A DNA stretch of 37,774 nucleotides, taken from contig JAIPEE010000036.1 of the NCBI GenBank assembly GCA_021737275.1, positions 1 through 37,774 of the forward strand, read 5' to 3'. The notes under the pieces are model-generated. The model saw only the letters and a program-made list of their open reading frames with translations, was not told the DNA's origin and did not search any database. This document shows, piece by piece, positions 13,426 through 22,142 of this stretch (position 1 is its first letter; each line of letters begins with the position of its first letter). The DNA comes from Desulfobacterales bacterium. Its GTDB lineage: Bacteria; Desulfobacterota; Desulfobacteria; Desulfobacterales; JAIPEE01. Position numbers and translations under genes: made by a program.

Positions 13426-13929
13426 ATGGAAGAAATTTTTGATATTGTAGATGAAAATGATAATGTAACAGGAACAGCAACCCGTGGTGAAGTACACGGA
13501 AATCCTGCACTGTTTCATCGCGTTTCACATGTACTGGTTTTTAACGCCACAGGTGAATTGTTTCTTCAAAAAAGGGGGCTTGATAAGGATGTTCAGCCCG
13601 GGAAATGGGATACATCCGTTGGTGGCCATCTGGATTCCGGTGAAACATATGAAGCCGCTGCAATCCGGGAGATGGAAGAGGAGTTGGGCATCAGGGATCT
13701 GGCTGTGACGTTTCTTTATAAATATTCCCACGCCAATGATTACGAAACTGAATTTGTTTCAACTTTTTCTTCTGTCTGGGATGGTGAAATCGTTACAAAC
13801 AGCGATGAGATTATCAAAGGGCGGTTTTGGAAACTTAAAGAGATAGAAGCGAATATTCCGAACGGGATTTTTACACCCAACTTTCTTGATGAATTAAAAC
13901 GATATAAGCACCACACAGGAAGATACTGA
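13426..13929 (+). CDS. Nudix hydrolase (YfcD-like)
   Basis: A 167-aa Nudix protein from the ATG at 13426; a TTG at 13408 would add six residues. The Nudix box is complete: GHLDSGETYEAAAIREMEEE followed by LGI (G-x5-E-x7-REUxEExGU), so metal-dependent hydrolysis of a nucleoside diphosphate derivative is expected. The N-terminus (EEIFDIVDENDNVTGTATRG) and the FHRVSHVLVFNATGELFLQK strand resemble the YfcD and isopentenyl-diphosphate isomerase branch of the superfamily. The true substrate is not predictable. No functional link to the neighbours is evident. Confidence 0.87.
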   Translation: MEEIFDIVDENDNVTGTATRGEVHGNPALFHRVSHVLVFNATGELFLQKRGLDKDVQPGKWDTSVGGHLDSGETYEAAAIREMEEELGIRDLAVTFLYKYSHANDYETEFVSTFSSVWDGEIVTNSDEIIKGRFWKLKEIEANIPNGIFTPNFLDELKRYKHHTGRY

Positions 13930-14154
13930 GACATCCTTTATACATCCACCGCGGCTATATTAGATAACACAACTTAACGGTGTTGGTTTGAGTGAATATC
14001 CTGAAATGAAAGACAATGATGGCTTCGGCAAGACCACAGGAGAGGGTGCTGATCTTCAACCGGCTCATTGGCTGCCAGAAAGATATTTCATATCTGTAGC
14101 AGGACACTTTGTCTAACCGTGAGAGGGCCGGATGTTTGTTGAATAAAATAATGC
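13930..14154 (+). other. Intergenic stretch with a short coding-like frame
   Basis: A plus-strand frame ending at TAA 14114-14116 can begin at an ATG at 14006 (36 codons, ending HWLPERYFISVAGHFV). Amino-acid composition is protein-like, but there is no ribosome binding site and I do not recognise it. It may be a gene remnant. Otherwise nothing is seen before the aro promoter. Confidence 0.25.
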
Positions 14155-14182
14155 TTGACAAAACAGATCCTTTAGATATAAA
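14155..14182 (+). promoter_or_regulatory. Sigma70 promoter of the aromatic operon
   Basis: TTGACA at 14155-14160, a 16-base spacer, and TATAAA at 14177-14182 form a near-consensus promoter. Transcription would begin near 14189, some 36 bases before the leader-peptide ATG. Confidence 0.7.
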
Positions 14183-14224
14183 AACGAAAAATAAATTTTA
14201 ATTATTTAAAGGATATTTATTTTC

Positions 14225-14305
14225 ATGGCGCATAACTTTTCAAGCAACTTTTTTAATTATTACTGGTATTATTTTTTTAGTACCGGGCTGCCTGGAGTGC
14301 GCTAA
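14225..14305 (+). CDS. Aromatic-rich leader peptide of the aro operon attenuator
   Basis: A 26-codon open frame from ATG 14225 to TAA 14303-14305, with AAAGGA at 14208-14213 as a possible ribosome binding site (11-base spacing, somewhat long). Residues 5-18 read FSSNFFNYYWYYFF. In all there are five Phe, four Tyr and one Trp in 26 residues, which is far beyond chance even in AT-rich DNA. It lies between a near-consensus promoter and a terminator hairpin, upstream of eight aromatic-biosynthesis genes. This is the layout of the classic pheA and trp leaders: ribosomes starved of a charged aromatic tRNA would stall on these codons. Unlike those leaders, it would sense all three aromatic amino acids at once. 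Confidence 0.85.
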   Translation: MAHNFSSNFFNYYWYYFFSTGLPGVR

Positions 14306-14329
14306 AGCAAAATTACATAACTAAGCGCA
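14298..14329 (+). promoter_or_regulatory. Candidate anti-terminator hairpin of the aro leader
   Basis: TGCGCT at 14298-14303 pairs with AGCGCA at 14324-14329. It can extend by pairing GGCT 14286-14289 with AGCC 14332-14335, which would take bases from the terminator stem. A ribosome at the leader stop codon would cover the left arm; one stalled on the aromatic codons would leave it free. The pairing is modest and has not been computed. Confidence 0.4.
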
Positions 14330-14371
14330 AAAGCCGTGGCGGTCCTTGATCCCCACGGCTTTATTATTTTT
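14330..14371 (+). terminator. Attenuator terminator of the aro operon
   Basis: AAAGCCGTGG (14330-14339) pairs perfectly over 10 bases with CCACGGCTTT (14353-14362), loop 13 bases, followed by ATTATTTTT. It lies 25 bases after the leader stop codon and upstream of the first aro gene, as expected for transcription attenuation. Confidence 0.75.
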
Positions 14372-14409
14372 AAAGGCCGTGGTGGACATGAAAGTCCTCG
14401 CGGCCTTTT
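14372..14409 (+). promoter_or_regulatory. Second leader hairpin that competes with the terminator
   Basis: AAAGGCCG (14372-14379) pairs with CGGCCTTT (14401-14408), with GGAC/GTCC closing the top over a 6-base loop. Its left arm, AAAGGCCGTGG, nearly repeats the left arm of the terminator. It can therefore pair instead with CCACGGCTTT (14353-14362) with one bulged G. This gives mutually exclusive structures. The hairpin ends 11 bases before the ribosome binding site of the first aro gene. Confidence 0.55.
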
Positions 14410-14432
14410 GCATCACAAAGGGAGAAAAGAAA

Positions 14433-15230
14433 ATGACAATTTTGGGAAAACAGATCAGAATGGAACGTATCATCAATCGTAATACCGGTAAAACCATCAT
14501 TGTTCCACTGGATCATGGCACAACGGTTGGCCCGATTCCGGGTGTTGTTGATATGAAAACAACGATTCAAAGTGTTGCAGAGGGTGGTGCTAATGCGATT
14601 GTAGAACATAAGGGACTTGTTGGTGAAGGTCATCGCAAAAAAGGCGGAGATATTGGTCTCATCATTCACCTTTCAGCATCAACCAGTCTTTCTCCTTACC
14701 CGAATGCAAAAACCCTTGTATGTAGCGTTGAAGAAGCAATCAAGCTTGGTGCCGATGCCATATCAATTCATGTGAATATTGGTAATGGTGATGAAAAAGA
14801 TATGCTGGCTGATTTCGGTCGTGTGAGTTATGAAGCCCGTACATGGGGTATGCCGCTTCTGGCAATGGTTTATCCTCGTGGTGAAAAGATAAAAGATGAA
14901 TACGATGTTAAAGTTGTAAAGCATGCTGCTCGTGTTGGTCATGAGCTTGGCGCGGATATCGTTAAGGTTCCTTACACCGGCTCCGTTGAGAGCTTTCGTG
15001 AAGTAACCGGAGGCTGTTCAATCCCGGTTGTTATTGCCGGCGGTGCAAAGATGGATTCAGACAGGGACATACTTGAAATGGTTAAAGGCTCCATTGATGC
15101 GGGCGGTGCAGGTGTTTCCATTGGTCGAAATGTGTTTCAGCATACAAATCCCACAAAAATTGTGAAGGCAATATCAGCTGTTGTTAATGATGGCAGTAGT
15201 GTTGATGAGGCATTGAAAATTCTTGAATAA
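14433..15230 (+). CDS. 2-amino-3,7-dideoxy-D-threo-hept-6-ulosonate (ADH) synthase
   Basis: First enzyme of the alternative dehydroquinate route. It joins L-aspartate semialdehyde to 6-deoxy-5-ketofructose 1-phosphate to give ADH. It is a class I aldolase TIM barrel of the DeoC/LacD type, 265 aa, like Methanocaldococcus MJ0400. The Schiff-base Lys is K178 in [14 protein letters not shown], with D27 in [10 protein letters not shown] and Y147 in LAMVYPRGE as expected partners. These sit at a constant offset from the residues I recall for MJ0400. The frame is open upstream to 14346, through the attenuator, but GGGAGA before the ATG at 14433 and the family N-terminus fix the start. Often written aroA'; I leave the symbol blank to avoid confusion with EPSP synthase. 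Confidence 0.87.
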
Positions 15231-15269: not shown

Positions 15270-16262
15270 ATGCGTAAGGTATGGGTTAAGGTAGATCCCT
15301 GGGATAAAGACCTGGTTACAACTGCGCTTGAAGGCGGTGCGGATGGAATTGTCGTGGAAAAGGGGATGTCCAAAAAAGTAAAAGAGCTGGGCCGGGTTCA
15401 GACAATTGCTGAAGATGGTGATCTGAAACTCGGTAAGGATGTCATTAATTTTACGATTAAAAGCGGTGCAGATGAGGAAGAAATCGTTAAGCTTACCCGG
15501 TCCAAAAAAGTTGTTTTAGAGTGTACGGACTGGACCATCATTCCGCTTGAAAATCTTATCGCAAAAAAGGCTGATGTAATAGCTCAGGTTACAAATTATG
15601 AAGAGGCTGAAACTGCCTTTGGCATTCTTGAAATTGGCGTAAACCATGTTCAGATTCATACTTCAGATGTTGTTGAATTAAAAAAAGTACTGACACTTGC
15701 AAAGGCGATGGGCGATAAAACAGAACTTGAAACAGCTGTAATAGTTTCTATAACACCGGTTGGGATGGGTGATCGTGTTTGTGTTGACACCTGTACCGCT
15801 ATGGATGTAGGGCAGGGAATGCTTGTCGGAAACAGCAGCAGTGCTTTGTTTCTGGTACATGCGGAAAGTATCTCCAATCCGTATGTTAATCCCCGCCCAT
15901 TCAGAGTCAACGCAGGGCCGGTTCATGCTTATACAAGAGTCCCCGGCGGAAAAACGCGTTATCTTTCTGAACTGGCCTCCGGCGATCAGGTTCATCTGAT
16001 TGATTTTAAGGGAAACACAACCGTCGGTATTGTTGGCCGTCTCAAGATTGAAAAACGTCCATTGATGCTGATAACCGCAAAAGCCGGTGACAAGGAGATT
16101 TCCTGCATTGTGCAGAATGCTGAAACAATTCGTCTGACAGATCCGGATGGTAAAGCAGTATCTGTTGTTTCTCTTCAACCGGGTGATAAGGTTCTAGTTG
16201 CGATTGAGGCAGGTGGAAGGCATTTTGGCCATAAGATTGATGAAACGATAACAGAAAAATAA
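15270..16262 (+). CDS. 3-dehydroquinate synthase II
   Basis: Second enzyme of the alternative route: NAD-dependent oxidative deamination and cyclisation of ADH to 3-dehydroquinate, replacing classical AroB. It is 330 aa, the usual size for the MJ1249/DHQS-II family, and unrelated to AroB. Family-typical stretches are MRKVWVKVDPWDKDLVTTAL, VCVDTCTAMDVGQGMLVGNS, and NPRPFRVNAGPVHAYTRVPG, GKTRYLSEL. AGGAGAG lies 7 bases before the ATG. It is separated from the ADH synthase gene by 39 bases. The two together mean the organism does not need DAHP synthase plus AroB to reach dehydroquinate. Sometimes called aroB'. Confidence 0.9.
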   Translation: MRKVWVKVDPWDKDLVTTALEGGADGIVVEKGMSKKVKELGRVQTIAEDGDLKLGKDVINFTIKSGADEEEIVKLTRSKKVVLECTDWTIIPLENLIAKKADVIAQVTNYEEAETAFGILEIGVNHVQIHTSDVVELKKVLTLAKAMGDKTELETAVIVSITPVGMGDRVCVDTCTAMDVGQGMLVGNSSSALFLVHAESISNPYVNPRPFRVNAGPVHAYTRVPGGKTRYLSELASGDQVHLIDFKGNTTVGIVGRLKIEKRPLMLITAKAGDKEISCIVQNAETIRLTDPDGKAVSVVSLQPGDKVLVAIEAGGRHFGHKIDETITEK

Positions 16263-16279
16263 AATTGGAATTTTAAACA

Positions 16280-17389
16280 ATGGACAAAACTGAAAATACA
16301 GGCGACAAAGCTTTGCCCGGCACTATTCCTGAACTCCGACAGTCGATAGACAGTATTGATGATGAAATATTGTCGCTTATAAACAGAAGACTGTCACTTG
16401 CCTTAAAAATTGGAAAGCTCAAGGCGACCAACGGAAATCAGGTTATTGATACGACACGTGAAAGCAGTATTATTAACCGTCTGGTAAAACAGAATGCAGG
16501 ACCGCTGGATAACCGGGTACTTCATCACATGTATTCAGAGATAATGGCTGCATCACGAGAACTTCAGCGGCCGCAGCATATTGCCTTTCTTGGACCGGAG
16601 GCAACGTTTACTCATATTGCCGCCATGAACCATTTTGGACATTCAGTAACATTCAGCCCGCAGGCCAGTATAAGAGATATCTTTTATGAGGTGGAAAAGG
16701 GAACTTTTCATTACGGGGTGGTGCCGGTTGAAAACTCAATTGAAGGGTCGGTGAACTACACACTGGATCTTTTTTTTGAGTCAGGCCTTAAAGTTTGTGC
16801 TGAAATTTATCAGAGTATTTCACATGATTTGCTTTCAAATGAGACCCGGTTGGAAGATATCAACACGATATATTCTCATCCGCATGCATTTGCACAGTGC
16901 AGACACTGGCTGAGAAAAAATCTGCCGACTGTAACACTGGCAGAATGCAGCTCAACAGCCCATGCGGCTCAGTTGGCTTCTGAACAAAAGGGTGCTGCCG
17001 CCATCGCAAGTAAAGAGGCGGCTCAGATTTATGAAATAGAAATAATGGCCGATGCGATTGAAGACCTTTCAAGGAACATTACCCGGTTTCTGGTTATCGG
17101 GAAAGACAAGATTGGTCCGACAGGAAATGACAAAACCTCCATTATGTTTGCTACCGGCCACGTACCGGGGGCGCTCTACAAGGCTTTGAAGCCTCTTGCG
17201 GATTCCGGTGTTAATATGGATAAGCTGGAGTCAAGACCGGCCAAGCATGAAAACTGGAACTACTTTTTCTTTGTAGATATTGAAGGTCATATTGATGATC
17301 CCAATGTAAGTAAAACATTTGAACAGATGGAAAAAATTTGTACATTTATCAAATGTCTCGGATCATACCCCAGAGAGAAAAACAGTTGA
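16280..17389 (+). CDS. pheA: Bifunctional chorismate mutase / prephenate dehydratase
   Basis: P-protein of phenylalanine synthesis, 369 aa, converting chorismate to prephenate and then phenylpyruvate. Residues about 15-95 are an AroQ-type chorismate mutase (LRQSIDSIDDEILSLINRRL). Residues about 100-285 are prephenate dehydratase (IAFLGPEATFTHIAA, VVPVENSIEGSV, and the catalytic TRF motif in NITRFLVIG). Residues about 295-365 are an ACT domain with the ESRP motif (KLESRPAKHENWNYFFF) that binds Phe for feedback inhibition. Enzyme-level inhibition by Phe would act alongside transcript-level attenuation. It starts 17 bases after the DHQS-II stop. Confidence 0.93.
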   Translation: MDKTENTGDKALPGTIPELRQSIDSIDDEILSLINRRLSLALKIGKLKATNGNQVIDTTRESSIINRLVKQNAGPLDNRVLHHMYSEIMAASRELQRPQHIAFLGPEATFTHIAAMNHFGHSVTFSPQASIRDIFYEVEKGTFHYGVVPVENSIEGSVNYTLDLFFESGLKVCAEIYQSISHDLLSNETRLEDINTIYSHPHAFAQCRHWLRKNLPTVTLAECSSTAHAAQLASEQKGAAAIASKEAAQIYEIEIMADAIEDLSRNITRFLVIGKDKIGPTGNDKTSIMFATGHVPGALYKALKPLADSGVNMDKLESRPAKHENWNYFFFVDIEGHIDDPNVSKTFEQMEKICTFIKCLGSYPREKNS

Positions 17390-17423
17390 TATCCGGCCGG
17401 TTTATTTTGATGGAGTTCATATA

Positions 17424-18245
17424 ATGTCCATAGTTGATACCAAAACCAATCTTTATGCAGTCATAGGAGACCCGATATTCCATAGTCTCAGCCCGGTAAT
17501 GCATAATCGGGCATTTAACCATATTGGGTATAACGGCGTTTATGTTGCCTTTCATGTAAAAGATGTTGCAGCTGCCATAACCGGCATGCGTGCACTGGAT
17601 ATTAAAGGCTTTAGTGTTACCATACCGCATAAACGTGCCATCATGGAATTTGTGGATGAGCTTGATGAGATGGCAGAAAAAATTGGTGCTGTTAATACGG
17701 TTGTAAATGAAGCAGGAAAATTGATCGGGTATAATTCAGATTGCCTGGGCGCTGTAAAGGCACTGAAAGAGATAACCGAAATCGAGAGCAAAAAGATTGT
17801 GATATTAGGTGCAGGTGGTGCGGCTCGCGCCATTGGATTCGGTATGGCCGGTGAGGGCGGGCTGGTTACAATTGTTAACCGGACCGTTCAAAAAGGGGAA
17901 CGTCTCGCTCGTGATATCGGCGCTGGTTTTTGCCCGATGGATCAGGTTGAGCAGCTGGATTGTCATATACTTATTAATACAACATCTGTAGGTATGACGC
18001 CCAATATAGACCAAATGCCGGTTCCTGAAAATATGTTTAAACAGGCTATGACGGTGATGGATATTGTTTATAATCCGCTTAAAACATTGTTTCTTAAAAC
18101 AGCACATGAAAACGGATGTACGGCAATTGACGGTGTTGCCATGTTTGTTTACCAGGGGGCGTTTCAGTTTGAACAGTGGACCGGCCGGAAAGCACCTGTG
18201 GATGTCATGCGAGAGGTCGTCATTAACGCCCTTTCAGGGAGATAA
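17424..18245 (+). CDS. aroE: Shikimate dehydrogenase
   Basis: NADP-dependent reduction of 3-dehydroshikimate to shikimate; 273 aa, normal for a stand-alone AroE. The substrate-binding region has YAVIGDPIFHSLSPVMHNRA and SVTIPHKRAIMEF with the catalytic Lys. NTVVNEAGKLIGYNSDCLGA follows, with the catalytic Asp. The nucleotide fold is VILGAGGAARAIGF, and NRT in VNRTVQKG is the NADP clamp. The frame is open back to 17319, inside pheA, but GGAG before the ATG at 17424 and the family N-terminus place the start there. It has no fused dehydroquinate dehydratase domain, which matters because none is encoded in this operon. Confidence 0.92.
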   Translation: MSIVDTKTNLYAVIGDPIFHSLSPVMHNRAFNHIGYNGVYVAFHVKDVAAAITGMRALDIKGFSVTIPHKRAIMEFVDELDEMAEKIGAVNTVVNEAGKLIGYNSDCLGAVKALKEITEIESKKIVILGAGGAARAIGFGMAGEGGLVTIVNRTVQKGERLARDIGAGFCPMDQVEQLDCHILINTTSVGMTPNIDQMPVPENMFKQAMTVMDIVYNPLKTLFLKTAHENGCTAIDGVAMFVYQGAFQFEQWTGRKAPVDVMREVVINALSGR

Positions 18246-18331
18246 TAACGCGTTGAAAGTGAATATTATCATTAATAAAATCATGAACGTATATGGCATT
18301 TGCTTGCCGGTTAAAGTTATAAGGAACCACC

Positions 18332-19588
18332 ATGATAGAAATTAAGACACAGCAGATTGATAACCGCTCTGTTATCATACCCGGCTCCAAAAGTTATACA
18401 CACAGGATACTTATTGGTTCTGCATTATCAGATGGTGTTTGTAAAATAAGCAACGCCTTGAAAAGTGAAGATACACTTCTGACGTTTAGTGCATTAAAGC
18501 AATTTGGTATTAATGCTGAAGAGACTTCGGACGGGTTTACTATCACCGGTGAAAAAGGCTCTCTTAAGTCTGCGCCCGAAGCTATATTCATGGGTAATTC
18601 CGGCACATCAATACGATTATTAACCGGTGTGGCCGCACTTGGTCAGGGAGAATATATTCTTACCGGCACGACCCGAATGTTTGAACGTCCCATTCAGGAT
18701 CTGCTTGACGGGCTGAACCAGGTGGGCATTGCCGCGTGTTCAACAAAAGGAAATGGTTGTCCCCCGGTATCTCTTGTTGCCGGAAACAGAAAAGGCGGCC
18801 ATGTTGATCTGAAATGTAAAATCAGCAGTCAGTACCTTTCATCTCTTTTACTGATCGCACCATGTCTGGAAGAGGGGCTTGAAATCGATATTATAGAAGG
18901 TCCTGTTTCAAAACCTTACATCGATATGACAATTGATGTCATGGAAAGGCTTGGCATTGAAACCAGCCGTGAAGGTTATGAGCACTTTAATATTCCTGGT
19001 AACCAGATATATAATGCCGGTAACTATAACGTAGAATCAGATTGTTCAAATGCGAGTTATTTCTGGGCAGCAGGAGCAATTACAGGTGCTGAAATAACAG
19101 TAAAAGGAATAAGTGCTGAAACACAACAGGGTGATATCCGGTTTGTTGATGTTCTTGAGCAGATGGGCGCACAAGTTAAAAAAGATGATAGCGGTATCAC
19201 TGTTTTCGGAAATAATCTTAAGGCAATAGATGTTGATATGTCTGATATGCCGGATATTGTACCAACACTCGGTGTGGTGGCTGCATTTGCAGAAGGGACG
19301 ACGACGATCAGAAATGTCGCACACCTTAAAGCCAAGGAGTGTGACCGTTTATCTGCAGTAGCCACGGAACTTGGCAAGATGGGTATTGATGTTACATGTA
19401 CGGATGATGGTTTGATCATTAAGGGCGGTAAGCCACACGGTGCAGAGATTGAAACATATAATGATCATCGGATAGCGATGTGTTTTTCAATTGCCGGTTT
19501 AAAGGTGCCCGGTGTTGTTATTACGGGTGAGAACTGTGTTGAAAAATCATTTCCGACGTATTGGGATGTATTCAGCACGCTGTATTAG
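18332..19588 (+). CDS. aroA: 5-enolpyruvylshikimate-3-phosphate synthase
   Basis: EPSP synthase, 418 aa, transfers enolpyruvate from PEP to shikimate 3-phosphate. Family landmarks are PGSKSYTHRILIGSALSDG at the N-terminus, GNSGTSIRLLTGVAALGQG (PEP/S3P site), DIVPTLGVVAAFAEGTT, KECDRLSAVATELGKMG, and YNDHRIAMCFSIAGL near the C-terminus. The motif is GNSGTSIRLLTG, in contrast to the GNAGTAMRPL seen in enterobacterial class I enzymes, so it may differ in glyphosate response; this is inference. There is an 86-base gap after aroE and AAGGA precedes the ATG. Confidence 0.93.
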   Translation: MIEIKTQQIDNRSVIIPGSKSYTHRILIGSALSDGVCKISNALKSEDTLLTFSALKQFGINAEETSDGFTITGEKGSLKSAPEAIFMGNSGTSIRLLTGVAALGQGEYILTGTTRMFERPIQDLLDGLNQVGIAACSTKGNGCPPVSLVAGNRKGGHVDLKCKISSQYLSSLLLIAPCLEEGLEIDIIEGPVSKPYIDMTIDVMERLGIETSREGYEHFNIPGNQIYNAGNYNVESDCSNASYFWAAGAITGAEITVKGISAETQQGDIRFVDVLEQMGAQVKKDDSGITVFGNNLKAIDVDMSDMPDIVPTLGVVAAFAEGTTTIRNVAHLKAKECDRLSAVATELGKMGIDVTCTDDGLIIKGGKPHGAEIETYNDHRIAMCFSIAGLKVPGVVITGENCVEKSFPTYWDVFSTLY

Positions 19589-19695
19589 TAAAAAATCTTA
19601 ATCGTATTCCTAATAAAAGTAATTAAAAAAACAGATTAAGACTGAGCGTACGATTTAGATTACGACAACATTTGGCTTGGGAAGTGGAATCTAAT

Positions 19696-20238
19696 ATGAA
19701 CATATATCTGATCGGGTACCGCTGCACCGGAAAAACAACGACTGGAAAATATCTGGCTGAAAATCTGAACCGGCCTTTTATTGATGCGGATACTGAGCTG
19801 ATAAAAGAGCAGGGGAAAACAGTTAAAGAGATTGTAAGTGTTCAGGGGTGGGGTGCTTTCAGAAGTATGGAAAAAGATGTGCTTAAACGTCTTTCCATGT
19901 TAAGAAATCATGTTGTTTCAACCGGCGGCGGTGTTGTTCTGGATAATGATAATATTGACAGAATGAAAAGTACCGGTGTTGTTATCTGGCTAAATGCCCG
20001 GCCGGAAACTGTGCTGAAAAGAATTATGCAGGATGAAAAAACGGGTGATCTTCGCCCGGCGCTTACAGATAAAAAACTAAAAGATGAAATTGAAGAGACC
20101 ATCGCTGCCCGAAAACCGTTTTATGAAAAGGCCATGGATTATCTTGTAAATACGGATGACAAGCGTATCAGTGACGTTTGCGATAAGCTGACTAAGTTGA
20201 CCGATATTATTACGGCAACAAAGAATTTTAAAATTTAA
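19696..20238 (+). CDS. aroK: Shikimate kinase
   Basis: ATP-dependent phosphorylation of shikimate to shikimate 3-phosphate; 180 aa. The Walker A loop is GYRCTGKT at residues 7-14. The shikimate-binding DADTELIKEQGKTVKEI and the F-R pair (WGAFRSMEKDVL) follow, then STGGGVVL and the lid Arg in DLRPAL. The frame extends to a TTG at 19672, but the ATG at 19696 gives the family N-terminus. The 107-base gap after aroA contains an 8-bp inverted repeat (19596-19603 with 19634-19641) without a U-run. aroC follows after 9 bases. Confidence 0.92.
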   Translation: MNIYLIGYRCTGKTTTGKYLAENLNRPFIDADTELIKEQGKTVKEIVSVQGWGAFRSMEKDVLKRLSMLRNHVVSTGGGVVLDNDNIDRMKSTGVVIWLNARPETVLKRIMQDEKTGDLRPALTDKKLKDEIEETIAARKPFYEKAMDYLVNTDDKRISDVCDKLTKLTDIITATKNFKI

Positions 20239-20247
20239 GAGGTTCTA

Positions 20248-21300
20248 ATGCCTGGAAATACCTTTGGAAATATGTTCAGGATCACAACTTGGGGCGAGTC
20301 CCATGGTATGGGAATCGGTGTCGTTATAGATGGTTGCCCGCCAGGTATCCCCATGAATGAGAGTATTATCCAGGAAATGATGGATCGCCGTAAACCCGGC
20401 TCTTCTGTTGCGAGTACAACTCGCAAGGAAGAAGATACCGCCATTATTATGTCCGGCGTTTTTGAAGGGAAAACAACCGGTACGCCGATTATGGTCATGA
20501 TCAACAACAAGGATGCAAAATCCGGTGCATATGCTGCTTTTGCAGAGCTTTACAGACCGGGGCACGGAGATATTTCCTATGATGCAAAGTATGGATTTCG
20601 TGATTACCGTGGTGGCGGCCGTTCTTCTGCGAGAGAAACTGCCGGCCGGGTGGCAGCAGGAGCCGTCGCCAAAGCTGTTTTGAAAAAAGAGAATATTACT
20701 GTGTCCGCATATACAATAGCACTTGGTGGTATCAAAGCTGAACAGCGGGATATGACAGTGATTGACAAAAACATGTTTGGTTGCCCTGACCCGGAAGCTG
20801 CTGAAAAAATTAAAGCACGTGTTGAGGAAGTAAAAAAAAAGTGTGATTCACTTGGCGGCATTGTCGAAATTTCAGCTAAGGGTGTCCCGGCAGGACTTGG
20901 GGACCCTGTTTTTGATAAGCTGGATGGTGAATTGGCTAAAGCTATGATGAGTATCGGTGCTGTAAAAGGTGTTGAAATCGGAGCCGGATTTCAGGCTGCA
21001 GAAATGCTGGGTTCTGAAAATAATGATGCCATCACACCTGATGGATTTGAATCTAACAATTCCGGCGGGATACTGGCCGGAATTTCAAATGGTGATGATA
21101 TTATTGTTCGTGTTGCAGTAAAACCGATTCCTTCCATAGCAAAGGAGCAGAAAACCATCAATAAATCAGGTGTTGCAACAACAATTAAAATGTCCGGCAG
21201 GCACGATATTTCAGCAATTCCCAGGATAAATGTCGTATGTGAAGCAATGACCGGTATTGTGCTGGCCGATCACCTTTTACGTCAGAGGGCAATTTCATGA
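20248..21300 (+). CDS. aroC: Chorismate synthase
   Basis: Converts EPSP to chorismate with reduced FMN; 350 aa. Signatures are GESHGMGIGVVIDGCPPGIP near the N-terminus, GHGDISYDAKYGFRDYRGGG, RSSARETAGRVAAGAVAKAV in the middle, and the C-terminal GRHDISAIPRINVVCEAMTG. AGAGG lies just upstream of the ATG. The stop codon overlaps the tyrA start by 4 bases (ATGA), so the two are translationally coupled. It provides the branch-point metabolite used by PheA and TyrA of the same operon. No trp genes are present in the window. Confidence 0.94.
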   Translation: MPGNTFGNMFRITTWGESHGMGIGVVIDGCPPGIPMNESIIQEMMDRRKPGSSVASTTRKEEDTAIIMSGVFEGKTTGTPIMVMINNKDAKSGAYAAFAELYRPGHGDISYDAKYGFRDYRGGGRSSARETAGRVAAGAVAKAVLKKENITVSAYTIALGGIKAEQRDMTVIDKNMFGCPDPEAAEKIKARVEEVKKKCDSLGGIVEISAKGVPAGLGDPVFDKLDGELAKAMMSIGAVKGVEIGAGFQAAEMLGSENNDAITPDGFESNNSGGILAGISNGDDIIVRVAVKPIPSIAKEQKTINKSGVATTIKMSGRHDISAIPRINVVCEAMTGIVLADHLLRQRAIS

Positions 21301-22142
21301 GCAACGGGTTTACAATTGGTATTATTGGCGGCACCGGTGAGATGGGCCGCTGGTTTGAAAAGTTTTTTACTGAAGCAGGGCATACGGTTTTAGTAGCTGG
21401 CAGAAAAACTGAAATTACCCATGGTGATGTTGCGCAGCAGTCAGACATAGTTATTATCAGCGTGCCGATTGGTGTTGATGTTGAAATTGCAAAGCAAGTA
21501 GGGCCGATGCTTAAACCTGATCAGTTATTGATGGATTTTTCTTCTCTGAAAGAAGATATTGTTAATGCCATGTATGAGCACTCCAAAGCTGAAGTGATTG
21601 GTACCCATCCGCTTTTTGGACCTTCTACGGAGTCCATTAAAGGCCAAAATGTTGCCCTTTGCCCTGCACGCGGCAGCAAATGGCTGGCGTTCCTTGAAGA
21701 ACTTTTAAATAATAAAGGCGCAGTCTCTACCCGAATGACACCCGAACGGCATGACAGAAACATGGCTGTTATTCAAAGTCTGACACATTTTCTGACAGTA
21801 TGCCTCGGACGTACAATGCAGAAAATGGATCTTACACCGGATGAAGCCAGGTTTTGCGCCACACCTGTATTCAGGATCAATTTTGACCTGGTAGGCAGGC
21901 TTTTTGCGCAGGATCTCAGCATGTTTTCAAAAATCATCGGCAAAAACAGACATGCCCGTGATGTACTTGGGATATTCAAAGATGCCATAGATGAAAGCAA
22001 GGCATTACTTCTTACCGATAATAATGGCTCGGGTGTCGAGTTTATGGAATCTATTCATGGCTTTCTTGGCGACGCCTGTGAGGAGAGCCTTAAGTCGAGT
22101 AATCACATCTTTAATGTACTTTATGAGAATAATAAAAAGTAG
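21297..22142 (+). CDS. tyrA: Prephenate dehydrogenase
   Basis: NAD(P)-dependent oxidative decarboxylation of prephenate (or arogenate) to the tyrosine precursor; 281 aa. The Rossmann motif is GIIGGTGEMGRWF at residues 8-20. VIISVPIGVDVEIAKQV, LLMDFSSLKEDIVNAM and GTHPLFGPSTESIKGQ follow, the last with the conserved catalytic His. There is no chorismate mutase or ACT domain, so prephenate must come from the mutase of PheA. It is the last gene of the aro operon; the 188 bases to the next gene show no clear terminator. Confidence 0.9.
   Translation: MSNGFTIGIIGGTGEMGRWFEKFFTEAGHTVLVAGRKTEITHGDVAQQSDIVIISVPIGVDVEIAKQVGPMLKPDQLLMDFSSLKEDIVNAMYEHSKAEVIGTHPLFGPSTESIKGQNVALCPARGSKWLAFLEELLNNKGAVSTRMTPERHDRNMAVIQSLTHFLTVCLGRTMQKMDLTPDEARFCATPVFRINFDLVGRLFAQDLSMFSKIIGKNRHARDVLGIFKDAIDESKALLLTDNNGSGVEFMESIHGFLGDACEESLKSSNHIFNVLYENNKK

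Follow-up and report, generated by a model that had tools for sequence, protein, structure and literature searches.

How can a single leader RNA, in which one hairpin arm is able to pair with either of two partners, decide whether RNA polymerase continues into the operon behind it? The question is raised by a stretch of DNA from a Desulfobacterales bacterium, a complete contig of 37,774 bases of a draft genome (hereafter the window), in which such a leader stands in front of a probable operon for aromatic amino acid synthesis. The nearest relatives in the genome collection are Desulfobacterales that are mostly metagenome-assembled, with named strains including Desulfonema magnum and Desulfatibacillum alkenivorans. 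In our view it is likely that the leader attenuates transcription in a ribosome-mediated way, and that its two intrinsic terminators, placed one after the other, are linked by a relay of alternative helices. Here we set out the evidence from the locus, from its relatives, and from computed folding, and weigh it against other explanations.

The features of the locus are listed in Table 1. After the synthase gene, the probable operon carries genes for 3-dehydroquinate synthase II, chorismate mutase/prephenate dehydratase, aroE, aroA, shikimate kinase, aroC, and prephenate dehydrogenase; the HMM matches for the chorismate mutase domain, shikimate kinase, and prephenate dehydrogenase lie below curated cut-offs. 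The probable promoter is missing from the results of a consensus promoter scan, which requires T at the last -10 position. A TTGAC with a -10-like hexamer lies 5' of 50 of 125 leaders, at a median of 70 nt before the leader start. The leader was not seen 5' of two further synthase gene copies in this genome (L151, L152). Second synthase copies in two genomes (L149, L150) follow a different leader, with the peptide MNRSLTH(A/T)RAFFWFFWFFTCAWGVCRSY.

Table 1. Features of the leader and the operon behind it (window coordinates).
Feature	Position	Strand	Details and basis
Probable sigma-70 promoter	14155..14182	+	TTGACA (14155-14160), 16 nt, TATAAA (14177-14182); sequence
Leader	14183-14432	+	directly before the probable aromatic operon
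Probable Shine-Dalgarno of leader peptide	14208..14213	+	AAAGGA; sequence
Leader peptide gene	14225..14305	+	MAHNFSSNFFNYYWYYFFSTGLPGVR, 26 codons; open reading frame
Segment A, protector	14226..14246	+	pairs with 14289-14304 (overlaps B); minimum-energy fold, swap test
Control codons	14249-14278	+	FFNYYWYYFF; in leader peptide gene
Segment B, 5' arm of antiterminator	14285..14295	+	codons G-L-P onward; pairs with 14338-14345 and 14334-14336
Segment C, 5' arm of terminator 1 (14330-14344)	14330..14345	+	fold, covariation
Segment D, 3' arm of terminator 1	14348..14362	+	then U-rich tract 14360-14371
Segment E, 5' arm of terminator 2	14372..14387	+	core 14372-14382 pairs with D or F
Segment F, 3' arm of terminator 2	14394..14409	+	short U tract TTTTGC
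Shine-Dalgarno of synthase gene	14420	+	GGGAGAA
First structural gene, 2-amino-3,7-dideoxy-D-threo-hept-6-ulosonate synthase	14433..15230	+	NCBIfam NF005556 and TIGR01949 above cut-off
Rest of probable operon	15270..22142	+	gene order and HMM matches

The open reading frame in the leader is rich in codons for the products of the operon, as befits a leader peptide, and its translation is predicted. It is the one aromatic-rich frame among nine (of at least 20 amino acids) that overlap 14100-14440, and a pair of regulatory frames of the mgtCBR type was not found in that interval. We collected 148 orthologous loci from the order, 141 of them with at least 300 nt upstream. A frame with at least five aromatics in nine residues occurs in 132 of these 141 upstream regions, compared with 68 of 705 shuffles; with at least seven aromatics in nine the counts are 121 of 141 and 0 of 705. 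Tyrosine (618) and phenylalanine (491) codons predominate over tryptophan (98) across the 132 leaders, and tryptophan is absent in 45. The aromatic frame is missing in nine of the 141 regions: the hairpins lie far upstream in L061 and L070, no leader was seen on inspection in L143, L144, and L148 (one genus), and L067, L105, and L128 also belong here. In the ninth, L075, reading of the sequence finds an in-frame stop inside the aromatic run, with the hairpins intact.

The leader RNA is strongly structured—the 241 nt from 14200 to 14440 fold at -73.1 kcal/mol, compared with a mean of -53.9 (sd 4.7) for 200 dinucleotide shuffles, none of which does as well (z -4.1). A preliminary description of this DNA had located the arms AAAGCCGTGG (14330), CCACGGCTTT (14353), AAAGGCCGTGG (14372), and GTCCTCGCGGCCTTTT (14394-14409), all of which match exactly; it had numbered them 1 to 4 and taken the terminator as the 1:2 hairpin of a scheme shifted downstream. 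These arms are our segments C, D, E, and F. The partners of two further helices, A:B and B:C, lie upstream of C:D, so the leader holds six segments, among which the terminator takes the place of 3:4; the counterparts of the classical 1:2 and 2:3, A:B and B:C, are found upstream, in and after the leader peptide gene that had been overlooked. The predicted helices are thus A:B, a protector; B:C, an antiterminator; C:D, terminator 1; D:E; and E:F, terminator 2.

The antiterminator B:C joins the leader codons GGG CTG CC(T) to the loop-side part of C, GGCGGTCC (14338-14345), and is extended by an inner helix TGCGCT:AGCGCA. It excludes the terminator, and its 5' arm lies just after the control codons. 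The core of D, CCACGGCTTT (14353-14362), pairs with C or alternatively with E. Hairpin C:D is followed by the U tract TTTATTATTT, with T at 8 of the 10 positions beyond the 7-nt core, and has the form of an intrinsic terminator at which transcription is predicted to end; the tract behind terminator 2 (5 T of 10) is weak in this genome. A simple terminator scan listed none in 13900-14500, probably due to its loop limit of 8. No Rfam family matches anywhere in the window at the gathering score, or in 14100-14440 up to an E-value of 1, and a T-box, riboswitch, or other known Rfam leader is ruled out by this lack of a family-model match.

The competing structures are of comparable energy. The fold from B to C (14282-14346) reaches -26.3 kcal/mol, and the hairpins taken alone reach -19.5 for C:D (14330-14362), -14.3 for D:E (14353-14382), and -23.5 for E:F (14372-14408). 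When the RNA is folded to F and a stalled ribosome is mimicked by masking 14225-14273, B:C with D:E comes to -50.1, B:C with E:F to -50.3, and C:D with E:F to -57.3 kcal/mol; given these three combined energies, no alternative pairing is energetically out of reach. The proposal that the three pairings of C, D, E, and F are real alternatives, with no energy gap that excludes one of them, is borne out by these values and by the covariation described below. Hairpins with shared arms also recur across the order.

That recurrence was assessed in 140 loci (153 minus 13 removed by hand for want of a visible leader or as paralogs). Two hairpins with shared arms were parsed in 129, and 123 leaders were kept after inspection, in which seven more were removed by hand together with leaders that lack the second hairpin; in L015 and L032 the parse did not yield two hairpins because D:E is itself their minimum-energy fold. 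Both hairpins are followed by at least 6 T within 10 nt of the core in 96 of the 123 leaders. The exceptions run in both directions. The first hairpin has at most 3 T of 10 in 13 of the 123 (four families), leaving a his-like leader; D:E keeps all seven core pairs in 11 of these 13, and peptide control, if any, would be possible only through D:E, as only terminator 2 remains. Terminator 2 is absent, and the leader trp-like, in L004, L041, L064, L071, and L135; it is thus not essential. Extra sequence lies between terminator 2 and the start codon in L045, L061 (a distance of 298 nt), and L070, with short repeats in L045 and L070.

Covariation was examined in an alignment of 55 of 58 genus representatives (A1; L005, L027, and L127 were left out as long or divergent). 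Cells changed on both sides number 35 for C:D (10.4 in shuffled alignments), 27 for E:F (6.9), 20 for D:E (6.0), and 17 for B:C (4.7), values that none of 500 shuffles reached for any of the four helices. Cruder measures are weaker for D:E: four pairs changed on both sides compared with 2.2 (20 of 500 shuffles as good) and 11 pair types compared with 8.6 (9 of 500); its covariation score is 0.258 compared with 0.186 (0 of 500). As all the arms share a favoured sequence, we chose as control the pairing C:F, which is complementary through the chain of helices and has no role in the model. It shows 6 cells changed on both sides compared with 3.3 (39 of 500), no excess of pairs changed on both sides (272 of 500) or of pair types (291 of 500), and a small excess in paired cells (91.4% compared with 89.9%, 3 of 500) and in covariation score (0.202 compared with 0.179, 7 of 500).

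Kinship among the leaders was addressed in several ways. Three of the 123 leaders were set aside for swap tests, leaving 120 from 58 genera and 33 families. When each genus or each family was represented by a single leader, none of 400 swaps reached D:E in either case, and 11 and 80 of 400, respectively, reached C:F. Swap tests for A:B and B:C gave 0 of 60 each, compared with 46 of 60 for a control pairing, A:C. A null model of random changes along a tree, built on taxonomy (120 leaders) or on a protein tree (63 leaders), gave 0 of 400 for D:E on both trees; for C:F it gave 44 and 42 of 400 with all standard pairs, and 22 and 59 of 400 with Watson-Crick pairs. The 63 leaders are what remains of 81 loci after removal of 10 without a leader (five of them with less than 200 nt upstream) and 8 without clean hairpins. 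Changes of both partners on the same branch are in small excess for D:E in this set (4.0 compared with 2.1 expected), in large excess for C:D (11.0 compared with 2.2) and E:F (11.1 compared with 2.8), and in none for C:F (1.0 compared with 1.8).

A second set came from 37 loci that were picked by hand from the listed covariance-model matches, none of them used before, and that precede other genes as judged by open frames; two hairpins were parsed in 36, three were dropped, and 33 were used. With kinship uncorrected, D:E pairs in 228 of 231 cells (0 of 2000), and the control C:F gives 585 of 2000, or 181 of 2000 for Watson-Crick pairs. For leaders outside the order, 20 loci were chosen from 39 genomes and one was dropped; among these 19, D:E gives 7 and 0 of 2000, but C:F gives 0 of 2000, so that D:E is not set apart from the control there. 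In sum, B:C, C:D, D:E, and E:F covary, D:E less strongly than C:D and E:F, and C:F has little support within the order and is significant in the small set from the wider phylum. The check suggested in the preliminary description—whether covariation would back a single pairing alone—thus came out in favour of the alternatives.

Position 7 of the core is informative here. U in D goes with A in E in eight genera (two exceptions), and C in D with G in E in 45 (three exceptions), an association with a Fisher p of 3e-6 by genus and 0.0015 by family. F is often U at this position and can pair with A or G in E; in the eight genera with U in D and A in E, F is U in all eight and C is G in five. Given these bases, E at position 7 is neither dictated by F nor copied from C. 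Leaders L010, L079, L111, and L121 are exceptions in which E follows F rather than D. At sites where C:D is not a Watson-Crick pair, 28 patterns have E complementary to D, and E matches C in 26, of which many still form G-U with D.

How might these helices act together? When Phe-, Tyr-, or Trp-tRNA is scarce, a ribosome would stall on FFNYYWYYFF and cover A, leaving B free to form B:C. C would then be unable to make terminator 1, and D would be free once E emerges; if D:E forms ahead of the synthesis of F, terminator 2 would fail too and the operon would be transcribed. When aromatics are plentiful, a ribosome at the leader stop codon would cover B, so that C:D could form and terminate transcription, and a polymerase that escapes terminator 1 would meet E:F, D being already used. 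If the leader is not translated, A:B should have the same effect as a covered B. The preliminary description had seen D:E as the 2:3 of its scheme; this helix could act on terminator 2 only, since E is made after RNA polymerase has passed terminator 1.

Computed folding agrees with a dependence of D:E on B. With E made and F not yet made, the probability of D:E in the 58 genus representatives has a median of 0.99 with B free, compared with 0.08 with B hidden (the predicted fold with the ribosome at the leader stop codon). Hiding B lowers this probability by more than 0.2 in 38 of the 58 and raises it by as much in none; it stays above 0.5 with B hidden in 14. The window itself is a weak example of the switch: the probability falls from 0.99 to 0.47 when the RNA is folded from B onward, and the effect of hiding B is small, from 0.99 to 0.89, when the whole peptide gene is folded with a narrower ribosome mask. 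Equilibrium folding favours C:D at terminator 1 even if B is free (median 0.89; window 0.98), so antitermination there would have to be kinetic, with B:C forming first. Attenuators are usually assumed to work in this order. After synthesis of F, the equilibrium probability of D:E is above 0.5 in just 4 of the 58; E:F wins, and we infer that D:E must act before the polymerase leaves the second U tract.

An ordinary attenuator at terminator 1, with the second hairpin as an independent back-up and D:E as a by-product of a shared favoured stem, would account for part of the data, and we think it rather unlikely. The bias to GCCGTGG is strong in all the arms, E:F is favoured over D:E at equilibrium, some lineages do without terminator 2, same-branch double changes in D:E are few, and C:F is significant in the out-of-order set, all of which fit a back-up. 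Against this, exchanging the partners between genera or families makes D:E pair less well, and C:F should profit equally from a shared bias yet gains little within the order. It can also be argued that an unswitched second terminator would cut expression in the on state as well. There is only a slim chance that terminator 2 is instead a local duplicate of terminator 1 whose arms are kept alike by gene conversion rather than by selection on D:E. The arms resemble one another in most genomes, and each of the four is GCCATGG or its complement in L303, L304, and L309, which belong to two families; however, gene conversion would be expected to give C:F as much covariation as D:E, a result not seen within the order, and A in E stands with T in D while C has G in L008, L016, L049, L056, and L101.

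The second hairpin might also act on the translation or stability of the downstream message and not on termination, a reading to which we give a shade less credence still than to gene conversion. It draws on the window, where the hairpin ends 11 nt before the Shine-Dalgarno, its core 28 nt before the start codon, and the U tract is weak. The Shine-Dalgarno lies outside the hairpin, however, and across the 123 leaders the distance from the end of the hairpin core to the start codon ranges from 19 to 298 nt and exceeds 60 nt in 30 leaders of 11 families; a terminator-like U tract is present in relatives, with at least 7 T of 10 behind terminator 2 in 82 of the 123. The earlier suggestion that the last hairpin affects the ribosome binding site is accordingly unlikely as a general role, and control of that kind was rejected on these distances. 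We retain the coupled pair of terminators as the likely reading of the leader.

Leaders of similar design precede other genes, and their codons appear to match the gene behind. We compared downstream genes with HMMs for L262, L263, L267, L269, and L277 only; the others were judged by reading open frames. The same genome has a second tandem-hairpin leader on contig C21 (L262; 6907-7042, minus strand), whose peptide MENLSNINLQGWWWQNYIKGLLTE contains WWW; the gene behind it is trpE-like, with an HMM score just below the trpE cut-off. WWW also occurs before trpE-like genes in L276 and L277, and WWWW in L278. A mix of F and Y is found before pheA (L267), and a mix of F, Y, and W before DAHP synthase (L263 and others). 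In L269, YYYYYRYY and tandem hairpins stand before tyrS, the gene for tyrosyl-tRNA synthetase; its aromatic control codons are for tyrosine only.

In a sample of 247 genomes from the phylum, 45 have a covariance-model match at an E-value of 1e-10 or below, 39 of them outside the order. Leader frames with 3 to 8 aromatics in nine residues are present at 19 of 20 inspected out-of-order loci. The exception, L319, has tandem hairpins and a leader frame without aromatics (MKTNTARIAVVGSLALAGLPGGRSTAA) before a gene that reads as 2-isopropylmalate synthase-like; the two-hairpin design may thus extend beyond aromatic pathways. Hits at E-values up to 0.01 (375 of 389 genomes) were rejected as a count of leaders—they are unspecific, as this genome alone gives six. 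Two further leaders were noted by reading. L315 has the leader VRTQFSFNHIGYYYYGYLRRSAL and tandem hairpins before an ABC transporter substrate-binding-like gene, perhaps an attenuated gene for aromatic amino acid uptake. On contig C79 of the same genome (L157:1427-1606), a frame MILSNVLNNLISIIILLVISVSNHDEQGW and one terminator-like hairpin precede an ilvD-like gene, probably as a branched-chain attenuator.

The closest known designs come from enteric bacteria. Their trp and pheA leaders are four-segment attenuators with aromatic control codons, and our A, B, C, and D correspond to their segments 1, 2, 3, and 4 (1:2 protector, 2:3 antiterminator, 3:4 terminator); the present leader differs in its extra segments E and F, in its sequence, and in its phylum. 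The his leader of Salmonella and E. coli has six segments, in which A:B, C:D, and E:F compete with B:C and D:E, and only the last hairpin terminates. The present leader shares with it six segments in the same order, a control-codon peptide, an extra hairpin before the last terminator, and a D:E alternative between the middle and last hairpins, for which the support is weaker by same-branch changes and in the out-of-order set. Unlike in his, the middle hairpin C:D has a U tract in most genomes, giving two terminators rather than termination at the last hairpin only; of the two in the window, terminator 2 has the poorer tract (5 T of 10, compared with 8). The signal here would be Phe, Tyr, and Trp, and no Rfam family matches. 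A role in low basal read-through has been proposed for the extra hairpin before the his terminator (PMC1183508).

Leaders with paired elements have been described elsewhere. That of Salmonella mgtCBR contains two attenuating elements, at least one sensing tRNA charging; they are described as having two peptides and two signals, independent and additive in effect, and stem-loops unlike intrinsic terminators (PMC3641672). In the present leader, by contrast, a single peptide appears to govern a coupled pair of intrinsic terminators. The gene rimP is not an amino acid synthesis gene. Its leader has two tandem terminators and a potential antiterminator, and the passage describing it mentions no leader peptide (PMC2965389). 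The general idea of alternative helices that form a chain is shared with the "chains of RNA helices" in attenuation of Lopatovskaya et al. 2010, as cited in PMC4833913. Among the matches listed in the open literature, taken by titles and abstract beginnings, none is an account of this leader in these bacteria.

In all the sequence features tested the leader is a leader-peptide attenuator, with a predicted response to starvation. It is best read as a new design that lies between the trp and his types and has two terminators in series, both of which a single ribosome position would set. The broader proposition, on which our judgement is evenly balanced, is that these leaders form a class of coupled double-terminator attenuators, present throughout one order and scattered in the phylum, in which B:C would free D and D:E would disarm terminator 2—a double lock with no cost in the on state, and a bridge between trp-like and his-like designs. 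The bridge is plausible because the leaders that have lost terminator 2 are trp-like and those that have lost the U tract of the first hairpin are his-like. In this order of sulfate reducers, and in further families of its phylum, a conserved probable attenuator without an Rfam match is found before aro, DAHP synthase, trpE, pheA, and tyrS genes. Two coupled terminators make it testable how one leader joins tight repression to full induction, and also how a his-type leader of six segments could evolve from a trp-type leader of four.
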